DNA from: Candidatus Lindowbacteria bacterium RIFCSPLOWO2_12_FULL_62_27 | GTDB lineage: Bacteria > Lindowbacteria > 2-12-FULL-62-27 | Direction: 5' to 3' | Assembly (NCBI GenBank): GCA_001784175.1 | Contig: MFPR01000001.1 | Span: 1-64,000, forward strand | Length of the DNA stretch: 64,000 bases | Part shown: in pieces, positions 35,057 to 44,083 of the stretch | Numbering within the stretch: position 1 is the stretch's first letter | Layout of the letters: the number at the start of each line of letters is the position of its first letter | Notes under the pieces: model-generated | What the model was told of the DNA's origin: nothing | Databases searched by the model: none | Seen by the model: only the letters and a program-made list of their open reading frames with translations | Position numbers and translations under genes: made by a program

Positions 35057-36928
35057 ATGACGGAACCGGCGACAGCACAGGGCGGCGTGACGCGCGATGA
35101 GGCGATGGCAGTCGCTGAGGCCGCGCGTGAGACGGAGTGGAAGCATCCCTCCTTTGTCGCCGAACTCTTCATGGGCCGGTTCCGGCCCGGGCTGATTTTT
35201 CCCTATCCGCTTCAATCCGAATCCGACAAGAAAACCGGCGACGAATTTCTGGCGAAGCTCGAGAAGTTCCTGCGGGAGCATCTGGACCCCGACGAGGTCG
35301 ACCGGACGCACGAGATCCCGGTCGAGGTCATCAAGGGCCTGGCGGACCTCGGATGTTTCGGGATGAAAATTCCGACCTCGTACGGCGGGTTGGGCCTCTC
35401 GCAGGTCAATTACAACCGCTCCATCGCGCTGGTCGCGTCGTATTGCGCCTCGACCGCCGTCTGGCTTTCGGCGCACCAGTCGATCGGCGCGCCCCAGCCG
35501 CTCAAGCTGTTCGGGACGGAAGAGCAGAAGAAAAAATATTTTCCGCTGTTCGCCAAGGGATTCATTTCGGCCTTTGCGCTGACCGAGCCGGACGTCGGGT
35601 CGGACCCGGCGCGGATGTCGACGACCGCGACGCCCAACGCCGACCGGTCCGAGTGGACGATCAGCGGCGACAAGCTCTGGTGCACGAACGGTCCGGTGGC
35701 CGACATCATGATCGTGATGGCGCGCACGCCCGACCGGATGGTGGACGGCAAAGCGCGGCGGCAGATCACGGCCTTCATCGTGGAGCGAAACACGCCGGGG
35801 GTTGAAGTAGTCCACCGGTGCGAATTCATGGGGCTGAACGGCATTCAGAACGGGCTCATCCGGTTCAACAACGTCCGGGTGCCGGCGAAAAACATATTGT
35901 GGGATGAAGGCCGCGGCCTGAAACTCGCCCTGACCACCCTGAACACCGGCCGCCTCACGATTCCGGCCGCCTGCACCGGCACCGCCAAGCAGAGCCTCCG
36001 CTGGGTGCGGGAGTGGTCCAACGAGCGCGTCCAGTGGGGCGCGCCGATCGGCCGGCACGAGGCGATCGCGCAGAAAATCAGTTGGATGGCCGCGACCACG
36101 TTTGCGATGGAGGCCGTGACATACTACACCTCGGGCCTGGCCGACCGCGGCGACGCGGACATCCGGCTGGAGGCGGCGATTGCCAAACTGTTCTGTTCGG
36201 AAGCCTCCTGGAAAATTGCGGACGAAACCGTGCAGATCCGGGGCGGGCGCGGCTATGAAACCGCGCGGAGTCTCCGCGCGCGCGGCGAAAAGGCGATCCC
36301 GGCCGAGCGGGCGCTGCGGGACGCGCGGATCAACACGATCATCGAGGGATCGAGCGAGATCATGCGGCTCGTCATCGCGCGCGAGGCCGTGGACCGGCAC
36401 ATGCAGGTGGCCGGCAGAATTTTGCAACCGGGCCTCGCGGTGCAGGACCGGGTGCGGGCGGCGGGCAAGGCCGCGCTGTTCTACGCGGTGTGGTATCCCA
36501 CGCGATGGTTCCATCTTGCCTGGCCGCCCCGATACCTCTTTCTTGGCCGGTCATTGGCCTCGCACCTCCGGTTCGCCCACCGGCACACGCGGCGGCTGTC
36601 TCGCGCCATCTTTCACGCGATGCTTCGCCATGGCCCCGGCCTGGAAAAGCGGCAGGCGGTGTTGTACCGCATCGTCGACATCGGCGTGCATCTCTTTGCG
36701 ATGACCGCCGCCGTTTCGTACGCCCGCACGCTCGCGCGCCAGAATCCGGCCGACCGAACGCCCGTGGATCTCGCGGATCTGTTCTGCCGGCAGGCACGCA
36801 GGCAGATCCGCAGCCTCGATTGCGCCATCTGGTGCCACGACGACACCCGATCGTACCGGGTCGCCCGGCAGGTTCTGGACGGCCGGATGACCTGGCTGGA
36901 AAAAGGGGCGATCGGGGAGACGCCGTGA
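35057..36928 (+). CDS. Acyl-CoA dehydrogenase with long C-terminal extension
   Basis: The protein has 623 residues. The ACAD core (about 60-430) has LTEPDVGSDPARMSTTA (FAD/substrate loop), GLNGIQNGLIRFNNVRVPAKN and QWGAPIGRHEAIAQKISWMA. The probable catalytic Glu lies in NTIIEGSSEIMRL, the position used by short-chain and VLCAD-like enzymes. An extension of about 180 residues follows, as in VLCAD/ACAD9-type enzymes; it has hydrophobic and amphipathic helices that could attach to the membrane. It should oxidise longer acyl-CoAs in beta-oxidation. Its stop overlaps the next start (GTGA). Confidence 0.88.
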   Translation: MTEPATAQGGVTRDEAMAVAEAARETEWKHPSFVAELFMGRFRPGLIFPYPLQSESDKKTGDEFLAKLEKFLREHLDPDEVDRTHEIPVEVIKGLADLGCFGMKIPTSYGGLGLSQVNYNRSIALVASYCASTAVWLSAHQSIGAPQPLKLFGTEEQKKKYFPLFAKGFISAFALTEPDVGSDPARMSTTATPNADRSEWTISGDKLWCTNGPVADIMIVMARTPDRMVDGKARRQITAFIVERNTPGVEVVHRCEFMGLNGIQNGLIRFNNVRVPAKNILWDEGRGLKLALTTLNTGRLTIPAACTGTAKQSLRWVREWSNERVQWGAPIGRHEAIAQKISWMAATTFAMEAVTYYTSGLADRGDADIRLEAAIAKLFCSEASWKIADETVQIRGGRGYETARSLRARGEKAIPAERALRDARINTIIEGSSEIMRLVIAREAVDRHMQVAGRILQPGLAVQDRVRAAGKAALFYAVWYPTRWFHLAWPPRYLFLGRSLASHLRFAHRHTRRLSRAIFHAMLRHGPGLEKRQAVLYRIVDIGVHLFAMTAAVSYARTLARQNPADRTPVDLADLFCRQARRQIRSLDCAIWCHDDTRSYRVARQVLDGRMTWLEKGAIGETP

Positions 36929-37485
36929 ATGGGCGATCCTACGAATCCTGGCGGGATGAACTCCACCGATTTTTGAGCGGCGCCGAACGGGTGCTTGTGA
37001 TTCCGTACGAGGGCCCGGACCTGAATCCCCGGCGGTTCTGGCACCGGCTGGCCAAGCGGCATCCGGTGCGATTCTTCTTCCAGACCGCCGTCGTTGCGCT
37101 GACAACCTACCTGCCGGCCGGCGAATTCAAGAATTCCCTGTTGCGGCTGATCGGCATGAACATCGGCCGGGACGCGTTCATCGCCTCCGGCGTTTTATTT
37201 GATCTGGAGTTTCCGACCCTCGTCACGATCGGTCCCGGCGCGATCATCGGCACCATGACGAAGATCCTGACGCACGAGGTCACCGTGCGGTCCATCCGCG
37301 TCGGCCGGATCGACATCGGCCGGCAGGCGGTGATCGGCGTCGGCTGCGTGATTCGGTCGGGCGTGCGGATCGGCGACGGGGCCGTAGTTTCGATGCAGTC
37401 GTTTGTGCACAAGGACGTGGAGGCCGGCGTCTTCGCCGGCGGCAAGCCGGCGGAATTCATCAAGAAGCTCGACGGCCTGGTTTGA
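36925..37485 (+). CDS. Hexapeptide-repeat acyltransferase-like protein
   Basis: The protein has 186 residues from GTG 36925, which overlaps the dehydrogenase stop. The N-terminal ~75 residues include a short hydrophobic stretch (FFFQTAVVALTTYLP). Residues ~80-180 form left-handed beta-helix repeats (IGMNIGRDAFIASGVLFDLEFPTLVTIGPGAIIG, GVGCVIRSGVRIGDGAVVSMQSFV). An active-site His is likely in KILTHEVTV. It resembles acetyltransferases of the maltose/serine O-acetyltransferase group; acceptor unknown. The overlap with both neighbours suggests one operon for acyl or lipid handling. Confidence 0.78.
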   Translation: MNGRSYESWRDELHRFLSGAERVLVIPYEGPDLNPRRFWHRLAKRHPVRFFFQTAVVALTTYLPAGEFKNSLLRLIGMNIGRDAFIASGVLFDLEFPTLVTIGPGAIIGTMTKILTHEVTVRSIRVGRIDIGRQAVIGVGCVIRSGVRIGDGAVVSMQSFVHKDVEAGVFAGGKPAEFIKKLDGLV

Positions 37486-38342
37486 CTCCGGGCCGCCGGC
37501 GCCTCTGCGTATTCGTCTGTCTTTGCGGCCTGACGCTGGGAGGATGCACGATGTTTGAAGGTCCGATCACATCCATGATTTTTTTTCCCGACCCGGTATT
37601 GGAATATGAGCCGAAAGACATTGGACTTTCGGCCGAGACGGTAACCTTGAACGTATCGCAGGGCGTCGACCTCTATTGCTGGTATATCCCGGCGTCGAAA
37701 AATCGTCCGGTCCTGCTCTACCTTCACGGCAACGCCGGCAACATTTCGCACCGGCTGTCCATCGCCAAAGGCTGGGCCGACCGCGGCTTTGGATGTTTTA
37801 TGCTCGACTATCGCGGCTACGGCCGCAGCAGCGGCCAGATCCACCATGAAAAGGATATGACCGACGACGCGCGGGCCGCCTACGGCTGGCTGCGGCAGGA
37901 GCGCGGGATTCCGGCGGAAAAAATCGTCTTGTACGGTGAATCGATCGGCTGCGCGCCCTCGATCGATCTTGCGCTCGCAGAGACCGCCGGCGCCCTCGTA
38001 CTCATGGCGCCGTTTACCACCCTGCCCGACATGGCGCGGGTCCATTACGGATTCCGCGCGCCCGGATTTCTCGTGAAGAATTTCATGTTCGACAACGAAT
38101 CGAAAATCGCCTCAGTGAAGTCGCCGATCTTTCTCATCCACGGCACCGCCGACGAAATCGTCCCCTTCGAAATGGGCCGGAAGATATTCGAGCGCTCCGC
38201 CTCCACGAAGGAGTCGTACTGGGTCGAAGGCGGCACGCACAACGACCTGCCCCAATCCGCCGGCGCCGCCTTTTGGGACCGCCCGGCGGACTTTTTAATT
38301 AGAACTCTGGGGCCGCATCTGCTAGAATCCGGCGCATTGTGA
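37482..38342 (+). CDS. Lipoprotein alpha/beta hydrolase
   Basis: The protein has 286 residues from TTG 37482 (TTGA overlap with the previous stop). A lipoprotein signal RLCVFVCLCGLTLGGC places the lipidated Cys at ~22. The hydrolase has the oxyanion LHGNAGN, nucleophile Ser in LYGESIGCAPS, acid Asp in LIHGTADEIVPF and His in VEGGTHNDLP. It resembles BEM46/ABHD13-like serine hydrolases with small ester or acyl substrates. It is the last gene of the dehydrogenase-acyltransferase group and acts outside the cytoplasm. Confidence 0.87.
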   Translation: MTPGRRRLCVFVCLCGLTLGGCTMFEGPITSMIFFPDPVLEYEPKDIGLSAETVTLNVSQGVDLYCWYIPASKNRPVLLYLHGNAGNISHRLSIAKGWADRGFGCFMLDYRGYGRSSGQIHHEKDMTDDARAAYGWLRQERGIPAEKIVLYGESIGCAPSIDLALAETAGALVLMAPFTTLPDMARVHYGFRAPGFLVKNFMFDNESKIASVKSPIFLIHGTADEIVPFEMGRKIFERSASTKESYWVEGGTHNDLPQSAGAAFWDRPADFLIRTLGPHLLESGAL

Positions 38343-38388
38343 AACTGCGCTGAACATGAAATTCGACAAAGGATGAGGTGAAACGAGG

Positions 38389-40128
38389 ATGAAAAAATCG
38401 CTGGGAATCCTGCTGCTCCTGGTTGCGGTCCTTCTGGCCTACGCCGCATTTCGGCCGGTCCGCGCGCCCAAGGATGAAATCCTGCAGGGCGGAAAGAATA
38501 TGCGGCCCTACAACATACTGATTCTGACATCCGAAAGCTTCAACCTGCGGCATCTGGGCTGTTACGGCTATCCGAAACCGACGTCGCCGACGATCGACCA
38601 GTTGGCGAAGGAGGGCGTGCTGTTCACGCAGATGGTGAACGCGTCGGCCTGGACCAACGAGAGCCTCATCTCGCTCTTCACCTCGCTCGAATCCGGCATT
38701 CACAACGTGATCACGCGGTCGAGAAACATCGATCCGAAATGGTACACGCCGATCGAGATTCTGCGGGACCTCGGCTATGACGCGCCACGCCTGCAGGGCT
38801 TTCAGGGCGACCAGAATCACAGTTTTGTCGGGTTCGACGACGTCGAGTGGCGGAAGACCTTCGACTGGTTCGACATCAACTCCGGCAAAATCGAGCAGCC
38901 GTTTCTCATCTTCTGGCATTTTCTGCCCGCCCACCTTCCCTACGACGCCGGCGACACGTACGAAAAAATGTTTTTCCGAGAGGACATGATCCGGTCGGCC
39001 GCCAGCCGGGAGCGGATCGCGCGGGTGCGGAAGGACTCCGTCATTTTGAAGTCGTCCGTCACGTTCCAGCCCGAGGACTCGGCGGCGATCCATGCGCTCT
39101 ATGACGCCGAGATCCGCCGGTTCGACGATTTTGTCAAGGAGGCGATCGCGAAACTCAAGCGGGAGGGGCTGGACAAGAACACGATCGTCCTCATCGGCTG
39201 CGACCACGGCGAGGAGATTCTGGAGCACGGACATGTGGGCCACAGCTCGACCACCGGGGCCGGCCATATGTACGACGAGTTGATCCACGTGCCGTTTATC
39301 ATGTGGGCGCCCGGCATTCTGCCGGAGGGCAAGGTGATCTCCGCGCAGATGCGGACCATCGACGTCATGCCGACGCTGTTCGAGCTCGTCCACGTCCCCG
39401 TCCCATCCTATTTCCGGGGCCAGTCGATGCTGGGCGTCATCACCGGCCGGGAGGCGCCGGCGGACCGGCCCGCCTACGTGCAGACCTCCAAGTGGGGATT
39501 CGGCGAGCCCGACCCGTTCAACGTGAAGGACTACATCTATTGCGTCCGCACGCCGCGCTGGAAATTCGTCTCCTTCGTCTCGAACAAGGAGCCGGTGCGG
39601 GAAGAGTTGTTCAATCTGGAGGAGGACCCGTACGAGCAGAAGAACCTGATTGAACAGCACGTGAAGGAGGCCAATGAGTTTCGCGTCCAGCTGACGGCGC
39701 GGCTCATCGAATACACGAAAATCAAACCCCCCAAGATCGACGTCCCGGTCGCGCGGACGCCCGGGGAGAAGCTCCTGGACTTTTTCGGGCTCACGCGGGC
39801 GTACGATTTTTCCGGAGTTCCGCATCCGAAATGGATTCATCCGGCGGACAACCTGGCGTGGGCCTACGCGAAGACGAACGGCCAGATCCGGCTGGAATGG
39901 GAGGGCGTGAAGGGCTGCCCCTACGTGATCGAATATGAACTCGGGACCGGAGACTATCACCTGACCGGCGAGGTCAAGGTCGACGGCAACGTCAAGGATT
40001 TCGGCGAGTTCACGCCTCAGTACTGGAGCACGTACCTCGTCGTGCGAAATCCCTTCAAGCTGCGCGTGTCGCCGGACAAGACTCCGCGCGACTGGAGCGA
40101 GTGGGTCACGTTCCGGTTTGAACCGTAA
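38389..40128 (+). CDS. Membrane-anchored sulfatase-fold protein without the formylglycine cysteine
   Basis: The protein has 579 residues. A signal anchor lies at 1-22 (KKSLGILLLLVAVLLAYAAF). The alkaline-phosphatase/sulfatase fold is shown by NILILTSESFNLRHLGCYGYPKPTSPTIDQLAKEGVLF and the metal site GCDHGEEILEHGHVGH. Where classic sulfatases have C-x-P-x-R, this one reads SAWTNESLISLFTSL, so the usual formylglycine cannot form and a Ser/Thr nucleophile is likely, as in phosphodiesterase or phosphotransferase relatives. A ~120-residue C-terminal beta-rich domain ends the protein. The next gene overlaps its 3' end. Confidence 0.82.
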   Translation: MKKSLGILLLLVAVLLAYAAFRPVRAPKDEILQGGKNMRPYNILILTSESFNLRHLGCYGYPKPTSPTIDQLAKEGVLFTQMVNASAWTNESLISLFTSLESGIHNVITRSRNIDPKWYTPIEILRDLGYDAPRLQGFQGDQNHSFVGFDDVEWRKTFDWFDINSGKIEQPFLIFWHFLPAHLPYDAGDTYEKMFFREDMIRSAASRERIARVRKDSVILKSSVTFQPEDSAAIHALYDAEIRRFDDFVKEAIAKLKREGLDKNTIVLIGCDHGEEILEHGHVGHSSTTGAGHMYDELIHVPFIMWAPGILPEGKVISAQMRTIDVMPTLFELVHVPVPSYFRGQSMLGVITGREAPADRPAYVQTSKWGFGEPDPFNVKDYIYCVRTPRWKFVSFVSNKEPVREELFNLEEDPYEQKNLIEQHVKEANEFRVQLTARLIEYTKIKPPKIDVPVARTPGEKLLDFFGLTRAYDFSGVPHPKWIHPADNLAWAYAKTNGQIRLEWEGVKGCPYVIEYELGTGDYHLTGEVKVDGNVKDFGEFTPQYWSTYLVVRNPFKLRVSPDKTPRDWSEWVTFRFEP

Positions 40129-41356
40129 AGCCGCCGTTCTGTTTTTCTGCGCTGTAGCCGCCGCCTGCGCGCGACCCGCCCCCGTGTCCGACCGGCGGTC
40201 CACCGTGGAGCCCGGGATCGAGGTGTTGCTCGAACAGCCGCGCGTCACGCTCGGCGACCGGCGCGCGGGCCTGCTGACGCACGCCGCCGGGATCACGCGG
40301 GATCTTGTATCGAGCGTGGACGCGATGAAGGCGAAGCCGGAGATCCGGCTGACCGCGCTCTTTTCACCCGAACACGGCATTCGCGGATCGGCGGCGGCCG
40401 GCGAGCAGGTGCAGGGCGGGCGCGATCCCGCGACGGGCCTGCCGATTCATTCGCTGTATGGAAAAACAAAAAAACCGACGCCGGAGATGATGGCCGAGGT
40501 CGATGTCCTCATCGTCGACCTGCAGGACATCGGCTCGCGAAGTTACACGTACATCTCGACGCTCTATTACGCGCTGGAGGCCGCGGCGGAGCAGAAGAAG
40601 CGCGTGGTGGTCTGCGACCGGCCGAACCCGATGGGCGGGCTGGTGGTGGACGGTCCGGTGCTGGACCCGGCGTTCCGGTCGTTCATCGGCGTCGCCGCGA
40701 TTCCGGTCGTGCACGGCATGACGATCGGCGAGCTGGCCTGGCTGTTCAACGCGGAATTTCACATCGGCTGCGACCTTCAGGTGATCCCGATGCGTGGCTG
40801 GCGGCGGTCGATGCTGTTTCGGGAAACGGGACTCTTTTGGGTCCCGCCGTCGCCGCACATCCCGACGCCCGAAACGCCGCTCTTCTATCCCATCACCGGC
40901 CTCATCGGCGAGATGGGCACGCTCTCGGAGGGCGTGGGCACGCCGATGCCGTTTCACCTCGTCGGCGCGCCATGGATGGACGGTCGTGCGCTTCAGGCGG
41001 CCCTGCCGCCTCTCACCGGCGTCGCCTTCCGGCCGCTGACCGTCAAGCCGTTTTATTTCAGATACGTCGGCGCCGAGGTCCACGGAGTCCAGATTTACGT
41101 CACCGATCCGCGCAGGTACCGGCCGGTCGAAACGGCCGTACACCTGCTCGCGCAGGTCCGGCGGCTCTGGCCCGCCGAATTTCAATGGCATCCGGCCGGC
41201 AAGCCCGATCAGCTCAAGAACGTCGACTCGGCCTGGGGCACCGACCGGATCCGCGCCATGATCGCGGCCGGCCGCCCGGCGGAGGACGTCATCAAATCCT
41301 GGCAGTCTGACCTGAGAAGCTTTCGCCGCGTGCGGCAGAAGTATATAATGTACTGA
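40118..41356 (+). CDS. namZ: NamZ-like exo-beta-N-acetylmuramidase (DUF1343)
   Basis: The protein has 412 residues from TTG 40118, overlapping the previous gene. A lipoprotein-type signal FFCAVAAAC puts a Cys at ~18. DUF1343 motifs are LLTHAAGITRD, FSPEHGIRGSAAAGEQV, VDLQDIGSRSYTYISTLYYAL, DRPNPMGG and GEMGTLSEGVGTPMPF. NamZ removes terminal N-acetylmuramic acid from peptidoglycan fragments. With an export signal it would act in the periplasm in cell-wall turnover. Confidence 0.88.
   Translation: MNRKAAVLFFCAVAAACARPAPVSDRRSTVEPGIEVLLEQPRVTLGDRRAGLLTHAAGITRDLVSSVDAMKAKPEIRLTALFSPEHGIRGSAAAGEQVQGGRDPATGLPIHSLYGKTKKPTPEMMAEVDVLIVDLQDIGSRSYTYISTLYYALEAAAEQKKRVVVCDRPNPMGGLVVDGPVLDPAFRSFIGVAAIPVVHGMTIGELAWLFNAEFHIGCDLQVIPMRGWRRSMLFRETGLFWVPPSPHIPTPETPLFYPITGLIGEMGTLSEGVGTPMPFHLVGAPWMDGRALQAALPPLTGVAFRPLTVKPFYFRYVGAEVHGVQIYVTDPRRYRPVETAVHLLAQVRRLWPAEFQWHPAGKPDQLKNVDSAWGTDRIRAMIAAGRPAEDVIKSWQSDLRSFRRVRQKYIMY
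41344..41349 (+). promoter_or_regulatory. Possible TATAAT -10 box for the primase-like gene
   Basis: A perfect TATAAT at 41344-41349 sits nine bases before the ATG at 41358, inside the 3' end of namZ. Transcription starting at or near the ATG would give a leaderless message, and no ribosome-binding site is visible. The matching -35 region (TTTCGC) is poor, so this remains tentative. Confidence 0.35.
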
Positions 41357-41357
41357 T

Positions 41358-42680
41358 ATGCTGGATCAGGTCGAATATTACCGGGATCCGGCGGTGCGCA
41401 GGCGCATCGCGCAATTTGTCGAAGCGTCGAGCTACATCGTCGGCTACGGCGAATCGGAATTATGGCGCGGCAATACAAAGGGATTCTATGCGTCGCCCGT
41501 GTCCGGCCTCGGCCGGATGCTCGACCGCGGACTCGACATCCTCATCTGCCTTCAGCAGCGGCGCGCGACGCTCGGCATCACCGACATCGAGTATTACAAC
41601 CCGAGGTTTCCGGGCGAAGCGCACCTGAATCCGCAGCGGGTGTTCCGCCTGATCGAGCCGGTCTACGAATGCATCCAGACCGTCTACCGCCGGTATGGCA
41701 TCCCCGTCGTGGCCGTTTTCACCGGGCAAGGCTATCATTTCTGGTCGCAGTTCCCGTTCGGCCCGAAACACCGCCGGCTGGAGGAGCTGGGCCGGCTCGA
41801 GCCGACCGTGGCGCGCGCCTATGCGCGCAGGCGCATCCCGTCCGAAACGGCGCTCGGATTTTCCGGCATGGGCCGCTTGCATCTGTTCCTGGCGGGAGAA
41901 ATTCTCCGGGAAATTTCGACGGCGCGGCGCACCGGCCAACGGATGCTCCCGGTGTATTTCTCCGACGTCCATCCACCGTTCGGCCGGGAGGCGGTGTCGA
42001 TCGACCTCACGAGTTACGCGGATCCGGTTTACATGCGCGACGCGCGCGTTCCGTTTTCGTCCTATCAGAAGCACCGGGTTCTGACGGACAAGGTCGGCCG
42101 GAAGAACGCAGCGAAAATTCCCATCGAGATTTTGATCCCGCGCTCGGCGCCCGGCGGGCCGAGCCTCTCCGTCGAAACCTGCCTGCACCTCCGCCGCCAT
42201 TTCCGCCACGCCGCCGATCTGGCCGACCGGACGGACACGCGGCCTCCGGACGCGTCGGATGGCTGGCTGAACGTGATCGAGGCGTATCAGAAATCGAGGA
42301 TCGGCGCGTTCTTCCATTATTATGACGGCGGGCCGCGCCGCCCACCGAAGTTCTCGTACCGGAACCTCCCGCCGTGCATCCGCCACGCGCTGAATCCGTG
42401 GCAGCTCCTGGAGCCGACCCAGGCCCAAGCGGCGGTCCGGGTCCTGGACAAGATGGGTTTCCATCCAATGGAAATCGCCGAACTCTTCTACAGAAAATAC
42501 CGCCGCACGCCCTTCGGCCATTACAACCCCCAGCGCCGCGCGGCGTTCTGGGTCGAAAGCTACGCCGCCCTCATCCACGCCGGCCTCGACCCCAAACGCG
42601 ACCTCACCTGCAGGGATCACCAGAACCGCGACCGTTGCGTCAAGCCGAATTGCGGGTGGAATCTGGCGAAGTATCGGTAA
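41358..42680 (+). CDS. Protein of unknown function with archaeo-eukaryotic primase-like motif pattern
   Basis: The protein has 440 residues and is not recognised as a named family. Three spaced motifs resemble the AEP/PrimPol catalytic set. D-x-E is in GITDIEYYNP (Asp76, Glu78). The G-x-G-x-H-x-W-type motif is FTGQGYHFW (122-129). An hD-L-x-x-Y segment ending in R-x-P-x-S-x2-x-K is SIDLTSY plus RVPFSSYQKH (215-239). The C-terminal 26 residues carry Cys418, His421, Cys427 and Cys432, a possible zinc site. It may be a divergent primase, PrimPol or related nucleotidyltransferase, but fold support is needed. No helicase or phage genes flank it. Confidence 0.5.
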   Translation: MLDQVEYYRDPAVRRRIAQFVEASSYIVGYGESELWRGNTKGFYASPVSGLGRMLDRGLDILICLQQRRATLGITDIEYYNPRFPGEAHLNPQRVFRLIEPVYECIQTVYRRYGIPVVAVFTGQGYHFWSQFPFGPKHRRLEELGRLEPTVARAYARRRIPSETALGFSGMGRLHLFLAGEILREISTARRTGQRMLPVYFSDVHPPFGREAVSIDLTSYADPVYMRDARVPFSSYQKHRVLTDKVGRKNAAKIPIEILIPRSAPGGPSLSVETCLHLRRHFRHAADLADRTDTRPPDASDGWLNVIEAYQKSRIGAFFHYYDGGPRRPPKFSYRNLPPCIRHALNPWQLLEPTQAQAAVRVLDKMGFHPMEIAELFYRKYRRTPFGHYNPQRRAAFWVESYAALIHAGLDPKRDLTCRDHQNRDRCVKPNCGWNLAKYR

Positions 42681-42688
42681 GAAACGGG

Positions 42689-44083
42689 TCAAACCCAGCG
42701 GACGGAATCGTCCTCCAGTATTTTGACGATGCGCAGGTCGAGGCGCCCCGAGAGATCCAGCACGTGCTGTTCGGAGGCCATGAGGGGACGGCCGTTTTTG
42801 TCCTTGCGGAGCCGGACGACCGGGCGGAAGACGTTTTTGGGGTTGGTCGACACGACGACCGCGTGTTCTCCGGAGGACAAGAGGACGAGGTAGCCTTCGG
42901 GGAAAAATCCGACAAGCTGACAGAAGATTTCGACGATCGATCGGTCGTACAGATTTTGTTTGCCCATGAGCTGGCGCATGGCGTCATCCGGAAAGTGCGC
43001 GTCGCGGAAGGCGCGGTCGGCGGTGGAGGCGGCGTAGACGTCGCAGATTTGGACGATCCGCGCGGAGAGGTCGATGTCCTTGCCCTTGAGCCCCTGGGGA
43101 TAGCCGCTGCCGTCCAGCCGTTCATGGTGCTGGCCGGCGATCCGCGCCCAGAGTTCGCGCGTGCCGGGCGTGGCGAGGATCAACTTCCGGCTCTCCTCCG
43201 GATGGCGCCGGATCTGCGATTGTTCCTTCTGCCAGAGTTCCCTGTCCAAGACCCAGTACCGTTCCGGCATGGCGAGCATGCCGATGTCGGAGAGGAGTCC
43301 GCCCATGGCGGTGTCCTGAACTTCCTGGGACGAAAGTTCCATCTGAATGGCCAGATACATCGAAAAGACGCCGACATTGACCATGTGGGCCATGAGATAC
43401 TGACCGGCCGCCTGCGCGCGGGAGAGGAGGGTGGAGAGGCCCTGCCGGGAAAGGATTTCCATCGTGATATTTTTGGTGAGGATGTCGAGCGTATCCGGCG
43501 TCAATTTTTTTTCAAGGTAAATCTGTTCCGTGACGTCCCGCACCGCCGCGCTGAAGAGGTTGGCCGGATGAAACACGACGTCCTTGGTGAGCGGCTTGGG
43601 ATCGCCGAGGGCATCATCCATTTTCTTGTAAGTTTCGCCGTGTTTTTGCTCCAGCTTTTTCTTCCGGTCCGCCCGTTTTTCCTTCCAGTCCTTCCGCGTC
43701 TTGTCGAGCTGCTCCATCATGACGTCCCTGTGGGTGGGCGCCTCTTTGGGCGGGGTTTCCGCGGGCATGCGGTCCAGCACCACCGCGGGCCCGCCGGGAT
43801 CAATGGTCGACACGTCGACCTCGTCGATCATGGCGGTGACGTCCGTCGGCATCGCTTCAATTCTGTCGAGGGTTTTCTTCAACATTTCCGAGTCCGACTT
43901 CGCAAACTCCACGTCGGACACCTGGAGGGTCCGGATGCCCCGGCGTTTCAGAAAGTCAATGTGCGTTTCCTCGAGGAGCGTCCCGGACTTGAGGAGCGTC
44001 TGGCCGGCGGCCGACACGACCGGCCCGGCCAGTTTCATGCCGGGTTCGGCCAGTTCGATCTTGATGGTGCTCAGTTTCGCCAT
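42689..44083 (-). CDS. HD-GYP-type protein with degenerate HD site
   Basis: The protein has 464 residues. An N-terminal domain (1-60) of the DUF3391/PilZ-like type with KSGTLLEETHIDFLKRRGI is followed by a charged linker (~110-155). The C-terminal half has the HD-GYP pattern AGQHHERLDGSGYPQGLKG (HHE...GYP at 319-329). The defining HD dyad is replaced by Ser265-Asp266 in GGLLSDIGML. Loss of that His normally abolishes metal-dependent c-di-GMP hydrolysis, so it may bind rather than cleave the nucleotide. The gene converges on the primase-like gene. Confidence 0.82.
   Translation of the reverse strand: MAKLSTIKIELAEPGMKLAGPVVSAAGQTLLKSGTLLEETHIDFLKRRGIRTLQVSDVEFAKSDSEMLKKTLDRIEAMPTDVTAMIDEVDVSTIDPGGPAVVLDRMPAETPPKEAPTHRDVMMEQLDKTRKDWKEKRADRKKKLEQKHGETYKKMDDALGDPKPLTKDVVFHPANLFSAAVRDVTEQIYLEKKLTPDTLDILTKNITMEILSRQGLSTLLSRAQAAGQYLMAHMVNVGVFSMYLAIQMELSSQEVQDTAMGGLLSDIGMLAMPERYWVLDRELWQKEQSQIRRHPEESRKLILATPGTRELWARIAGQHHERLDGSGYPQGLKGKDIDLSARIVQICDVYAASTADRAFRDAHFPDDAMRQLMGKQNLYDRSIVEIFCQLVGFFPEGYLVLLSSGEHAVVVSTNPKNVFRPVVRLRKDKNGRPLMASEQHVLDLSGRLDLRIVKILEDDSVRWV

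Follow-up and report, generated by a model that had tools for sequence, protein, structure and literature searches.

Among the described archaeo-eukaryotic primases (AEPs), those nearest in fold to the protein treated here are repair enzymes. Mycobacterial Prim-PolC (MsPrim-PolC, PDB 6sa0/6sa1/5op0), a small, single-chain, chromosomally encoded bacterial enzyme, fills gaps of 1-3 nt in excision repair, doing so best with endonuclease IV, and in mycobacteria it works there with EndoIV and LigC (PMC5663958). The polymerase domain of LigD (Prim-PolD) is also an AEP repair polymerase. Archaea and eukaryotes have a primase of two chains, PriS and PriL; the C-terminal domain of the latter (PriL-CTD) resembles the photolyases (PMC5700102). 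Fusions of PriS with PriL are known from N. equitans, the plasmid pTN2 and a Bacillus provirus (PMC3973330). In a 2018 survey PriL was nearly exclusive to the primases of chromosomal replication, and the bacterial AEPs identified there were nearly all borne on mobile elements; nearly all of the AEPs newly described from bacteria belong to the PrimPol-PV1 families (PMC5862659).

The family to which the present gene belongs seems to break both of these rules: its members are AEPs encoded on bacterial chromosomes, and the one accessory part they have resembles the Fe-S portion of PriL. The product of the gene is best explained, with a probability of roughly 75% for the explanation as a whole, as a chromosomal, single-chain, AEP-type primase-polymerase aided by a PriL-CTD-like domain.

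The gene and its surroundings

The window is the whole stretch of DNA that was analysed, 64,000 nucleotides in length. The gene lies in it behind the following neighbours:

35057-40128 (+): acyl-CoA dehydrogenase, hexapeptide protein, alpha/beta hydrolase and sulfatase genes, the context of the run (Pfam matches, gaps between genes)
40118-41356 (+): NamZ (exo-beta-N-acetylmuramidase), the upstream gene (PF07075, E 5.7e-86; PF20732, E 3.4e-40), with its stop 1 nt before the primase ATG
41358-42680 (+): predicted AEP primase-polymerase gene, 440 aa plus stop, ATG start (open reading frame, homologues, purifying selection, AlphaFold2 model)

The reading frame is open throughout, and both its GC and its third-position GC (GC3) are like those of its neighbours. 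A second genome within the same bacterial family carries an orthologue that is 71% identical, against which dN is 0.24 and dS 1.17, synonymous changes thus exceeding non-synonymous ones about 5-fold (dN/dS ~0.2), and a 41% identical paralogue lies on a different contig of the same genome; this is a real gene under purifying selection. Pfam, NCBIfam, PHROGs and PADLOC gave no meaningful match to the 440-aa protein, nor does any family in them name its homologues, while sub-threshold matches to HTH_IclR (E 0.011) and PSI/plexin were discarded. A PDB sequence search with the protein alone and with a 44-row profile returned no match, so that similarity to Prim-PolC is not detectable at that level, and the PriS model PF01896 (DNA_primase_S) had no match in the protein, among its relatives or in the genome as a whole.

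The primase gene closes a tightly packed same-strand run (35057-42680), in which it follows the genes for acyl-CoA dehydrogenase, hexapeptide protein, hydrolase, sulfatase and NamZ, in that order; successive genes are separated by -4, -4, 46, -11 and 1 nt. The preliminary description had drawn attention to a TATAAT just before the ATG and had suggested separate, perhaps leaderless expression. Those letters are indeed present (41344-41349), but they fall inside the last codons of the NamZ gene, and no -35/-10 pair (sigma70-like site) was found around them; because the gene sits at the end of an operon-like run, with the TATAAT within the gene upstream, a leaderless promoter is not supported. 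A convergent gene of HD-GYP type (42689-44083, minus strand) ends right after the primase stop; its nearest NCBIfam model, a NosR-type c-di-GMP phosphodiesterase, scores far below the cut-off. Elsewhere the surroundings differ, with MoeB upstream in the nearest relative (L003) and a 16S rRNA methyltransferase-like gene beside the paralogue (L002). The host genome has dnaG. No Ku was found in it, and no ligase is present among the identified neighbours of the primase.

The catalytic domain

The N-terminal two thirds or so of the protein carry the following features:

41358-42254 (+): N-terminal AEP catalytic domain, residues 1-~299 (VIA-align Z 17.1 to Prim-PolC 6sa1, 16.0 to LigD-Pol 2fao, 11.8 to PriS 1g71)
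41583-41591 (+): motif I, D76-x-E78, predicted metal ligands (D76 in 47/47 rows; E78 in 45, replaced by D in 2)
41721-41741 (+): motif II, T122GQGYHF128 with H127 (47/47), corresponding to the sxH motif of AEPs
42003-42005 (+): motif III, D216, predicted third metal ligand (47/47)
42045-42074 (+): R230VPFSSYQKH239, PriS-like segment predicted to contact nucleotide and phosphate (R230, F233, S234 and K238 each 47/47)

The general AEP motif set (motif I hhhDxD/E, motif II sxH, motif III hD) is matched by D76xE78, TGQGYH127 and D216 in all 47 homologous rows, a set that includes a few near-identical ones; the residues invariant across it are D76, T122-G123, G125-Y126-H127, D216, R230, F233-S234, K238, C340 and C418. 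Conservation of this kind, far beyond chance, bears out the motifs from which the preliminary description had proposed a divergent AEP (D76-I-E78, T122GQGYHFW129, D216LTSY220 and R230VPFSSYQK238), all of which lie where it had placed them. The acids read DxE in this family, as against D140/D142/D231 in Prim-PolC, an enzyme whose 5'-phosphate pocket consists of N20, K23, Y25, K35 and P65. In diverged second copies of the gene the last segment reads RAPASLHKKN (L075), close to the R-x-PGS-LHGKTG of archaeal PriS.

Using AlphaFold2 with 44 homologues, a model of the whole protein was obtained with a mean pLDDT of 93.9 and a pTM of 0.92. Residues 1 to ~300 of this model contain the two-module catalytic fold of AEPs and align by VIA-align to many of them at Z 10-17: to Prim-PolC at Z 17.1 (252 residues aligned, 3.5 A), to LigD-Pol at 16.0, to the CRISPR-related AEP CAPP at 13.5, to P. 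furiosus PriS at 11.8 and to human Pri1 at 11.5, with ranks 1-10 taken up by Prim-PolC and LigD-Pol. Foldseek alone placed CAPP at the top with a modest best E of 0.008. The AEP assignment put forward in the preliminary description is thereby upheld, with the correction that the nearest folds are Prim-PolC, LigD and PriS and not human-type PrimPol, which aligns at a Z of ~7. The PrimPol-PV1 supergroup, CAPP and human PrimPol share the AEP core with the present protein, though they are associated with mobile elements or CRISPR, or have zinc domains of the PriCT/UL52 type; no helicase, CRISPR or mobile-element context was found for this family. The LigD polymerase domain differs in being joined to a ligase domain, which is missing here. 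Given the fold matches together with the conserved catalytic residues, the 440-aa protein is almost certainly an enzyme of the AEP superfamily.

By analogy with these enzymes, D76, E78 and D216 would hold two metal ions, and H127 and the R230...S234...K238 segment would hold the phosphates of the incoming nucleotide. The domain would thus extend a 3' end by successive nucleotides, and may also join the first two.

The four-cysteine C-terminal domain

The remainder of the protein is helical and contains four conserved cysteines:

42255-42677 (+): C-terminal helical domain, residues 300-440, PriL-CTD-like (weak PF04104 matches in homologues; helix order in the model)
42375-42377 (+): C340, first predicted 4Fe-4S ligand, in an LPPC motif (47/47)
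42609-42611 (+): C418, second predicted 4Fe-4S ligand (47/47)
42636-42638 (+): C427, third predicted 4Fe-4S ligand (46/46 rows reaching that position)
42651-42653 (+): C432, fourth predicted 4Fe-4S ligand (46/46 rows reaching that position)

A Cys/His cluster at 418, 421, 427 and 432 had been proposed to end the protein. All four residues are present and the three cysteines are conserved, but position 421 varies (H, M, H, F in aligned homologues), and the predicted fourth ligand is instead C340, 78 residues before C418, which had not been listed. With tandem paralogues counted, 56 of the 60 family rows aligned have the full set of cysteines; the exceptions are an A-type copy cut at a contig end and three Elusimicrobia paralogues that lack the cluster, of which one is a fragment.

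In order and spacing the four cysteines match the 4Fe-4S domain of PriL-CTD. The LPPC around C340 has its counterpart in the FPPC of human PriL at the same place, the distance between the first and second cysteines is 78-86 residues in the family vs ~78-80 in human and yeast PriL segments, and the 9/5 spacing of the last three resembles the C-x10-C-x5-C of P. abyssi PriL. The sole Pfam match among C-terminal pieces is to PF04104 (DNA_primase_lrg), in L019 (E 0.005), L011 (0.014) and L012 (0.005), all three sub-threshold (best 16.6 bits vs a gathering cut-off of 22.4), and the window's own protein has no match to it. In linear register the first cysteine of L019 and L012 falls at PF04104 positions 108-112, that of human and yeast PriL being at 111, while L011 is ~8 columns out of register unless gapped. 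The helices of the AlphaFold2 model (339-344, 353-365, 370-381 and 391-407, then the three cysteines) follow an order that fits PriL-CTD. In BFVD an archaeal-virus "DNA primase large subunit" matched across the protein at rank 6 (E 0.012). The PriL-CTD itself is not among the whole-protein fold matches; as those lists are filled by matches of the N-terminal domain, this counts neither way. An earlier AlphaFold2 model built from 4 sequences only was poor (pLDDT 55.6), with meaningless fold-search results save a weak match to a class II photolyase (Z 4.7), which is suggestive only, and so on account of the likeness of PriL-CTD to photolyases (PMC5700102). A PriL-CTD consensus, used only as bait, pulled real PriL segments from the PDB; against phages and plasmids it retrieved nothing.

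The alternative is that the four cysteines belong to an unrelated zinc-binding helical domain that has come to look like PriL-CTD by convergence. In keeping with this, the sequence similarity to PriL lies below curated thresholds, and an hhalign comparison of the C-terminal profile with short human and yeast PriL pieces scored 17.5 vs a maximum of 17.7 for random-segment controls, which is not above chance; the LPPC motif, the distance between the first two cysteines, the helix order and the sole Pfam match all favour PriL-CTD, however, and convergence appears rather improbable. The C-terminus is quite likely a PriL-CTD-like Fe-S domain, its cluster being a prediction from the sequences and the model. 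Because of this cysteine arrangement and the sub-threshold PriL match, the enzyme probably unites "PriS + PriL-CTD" in a single chain.

With C340, C418, C427 and C432 as ligands, the domain would bind a 4Fe-4S cluster and, like the C-terminal domain of PriL, keep the nascent primer's 5' end, or that of a gap, beside the active site. Compared with the archaeal and eukaryotic primases, the PriS-like fold, motif II, the RxPFSxxQKH segment and the PriL-CTD-like cysteines are shared, but here they lie in one chain, too short to accommodate more of PriL than its C-terminal part, with no PF01896 match and none to PF04104 above the cut-off, in a bacterium that has dnaG. PolpTN2 of Thermococcus nautili pTN2, like the proteins of N. 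equitans and phBC6A51, also joins PriS-like and PriL-like domains in one chain, and has four conserved cysteines (PMC3973330); unlike the present protein it is plasmid-borne, 945 aa long (L050), has PriCT-1 and winged-helix domains (PMC5862659) and is without the motif II His. A relationship to it was considered and dropped, hhalign against the family profile giving a probability of 0.6% and no similarity. As for Prim-PolC, a four-cysteine C-terminal domain is not among its features in those parts of its description that were available.

Distribution and likely role

A scan of GTDB contigs yielded 43 loci, nearly all metagenome-assembled, with titles naming Elusimicrobia, Auribacterota, Hydrogenedentes, Dependentiae, Schekmanbacteria, Chloroflexi, Clostridia, the PVC group and unclassified bacteria. 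The family occurs in 18 of 386 whole genomes, a patchy distribution. No relatives were found in IMG/VR viral contigs, 50,697 phage records or 72,556 plasmid records, which, with the chromosomal, metabolic neighbours, agrees with the non-phage context originally noted, and no paper describing a chromosomal bacterial family of this kind was found in the open-access literature. In the tree the window protein and its orthologue form a clade next to the Dependentiae copies, a join for which the tree program warned of long branches.

Several genomes, including the host of the window, have two separate copies. In 11 loci a second copy follows directly on the first (L012:9407-10831, L020:9395-10924, L021:4081-5520 and eight others); these tandem copies have a T-x-SG form of motif II and are separate from the A-type in the tree, and one possibility is that the pairs form a two-enzyme or heterodimeric system. 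Some B-type second copies, found in genomes of Elusimicrobia and their relatives, have lost the four cysteines but retain the catalytic acids, namely two full-length Elusimicrobia tandem copies (L006:9511-10833 and L009:3494-4822) and three other second copies (L073-L075). Such paralogous pairs, the Cys-less copies included, offer natural comparisons. Two homologous stretches, L028:8001-9392 and G134:C92:26446-27837, have one in-frame stop each, which may be a sequencing error, a true end or the mark of a decaying gene.

Just downstream of the primase in 15 loci, in Chloroflexi, Elusimicrobia and others, lies a TIM-barrel gene of the AP_endonuc_2 family (PF01261; for example L004:2900-3739, L015:9396-10229 and L047:9509-10330, with 12 other loci), behind which hisS and aspS, named from their sequences, follow in some loci though not in all. 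All nine Nfo-type metal-ligand positions, at which E. coli endonuclease IV binds its three metals, are invariant in 14 of 14 aligned TIM-barrel proteins. By NCBIfam the proteins score nearest CbiR, sugar epimerases and Nfo, below every cut-off. This conserved neighbour parallels the functional link between Prim-PolC and endonuclease IV, and suggests that bacteria of poorly studied phyla have an additional pathway of gap repair. No such gene lies next to the window primase, nor did a BLAST-level search of the host genome find one, so that a repair role for the window protein rests on the family association.

Most likely the enzyme serves short-gap synthesis or repriming in DNA repair or damage tolerance and not routine replication, since dnaG is present and the family is chromosomal and patchy, since the nearest folds are those of the repair enzymes Prim-PolC and LigD-Pol, and since many relatives adjoin an endonuclease-IV-type phosphodiesterase. 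An accessory role in the host is likely, given dnaG and the absence of mobile-element signs. Gap filling in repair is tentatively favoured as the main role, at a little under even odds. Its main rival is repriming at stalled forks by a damage-tolerance PrimPol, which would make de novo primers downstream of lesions, its PriL-CTD-like domain binding the initiating nucleotide, with priming more important than gap filling. The PriL-CTD module is the source of the initiation ability of eukaryotic primase (PMC5700102), the residues that priming AEPs use for catalysis are all in place, and dnaG takes care of routine priming; the nearest folds are nevertheless those of gap fillers, and by hand alignment the essential initiating Arg of human and yeast PriL (R306/R355) has no invariant Arg counterpart, position 357 being Q in 52 of 60 rows and R in 5, and repriming is considered unlikely as the principal activity. 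That the gene serves an integrated mobile element as its replication primase, as in the PrimPol-PV1 families, would suit the patchy distribution and the fact that AEPs of those families are nearly all encoded on such elements, but it is hard to reconcile with neighbours such as acyl-CoA dehydrogenase, sulfatase, NamZ and HD-GYP here, and hisS, aspS and MoeB elsewhere, with the lack of a helicase domain, with a GC3 like that of the neighbours and with the want of relatives among the phage, plasmid and viral sequences searched; it is very improbable. Just as improbable is an AEP-fold protein that has ceased to be a polymerase and become, for instance, a nucleotidyltransferase or regulator: a fold does not by itself show function, but all 47 rows keep the three acids, the His of motif II and the R/S/K segment, and the gene is under purifying selection.

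Taken more broadly, there is perhaps an even chance that these genes represent an undescribed family of minimal PriS-PriL-CTD primases on bacterial chromosomes, inherited vertically or transferred repeatedly, often in paralogous pairs and often beside an endonuclease-IV-type enzyme. They would then form a system for repair or repriming that depends on Fe-S and differs from the LigD, LigC and mobile-element AEP systems known in bacteria.

A second DNAG_N match, besides the normal dnaG on C28, was seen at G000:C12:71929-72222 (L052); it lies in a 1075-aa open frame that is perhaps a mobile-element primase-helicase.
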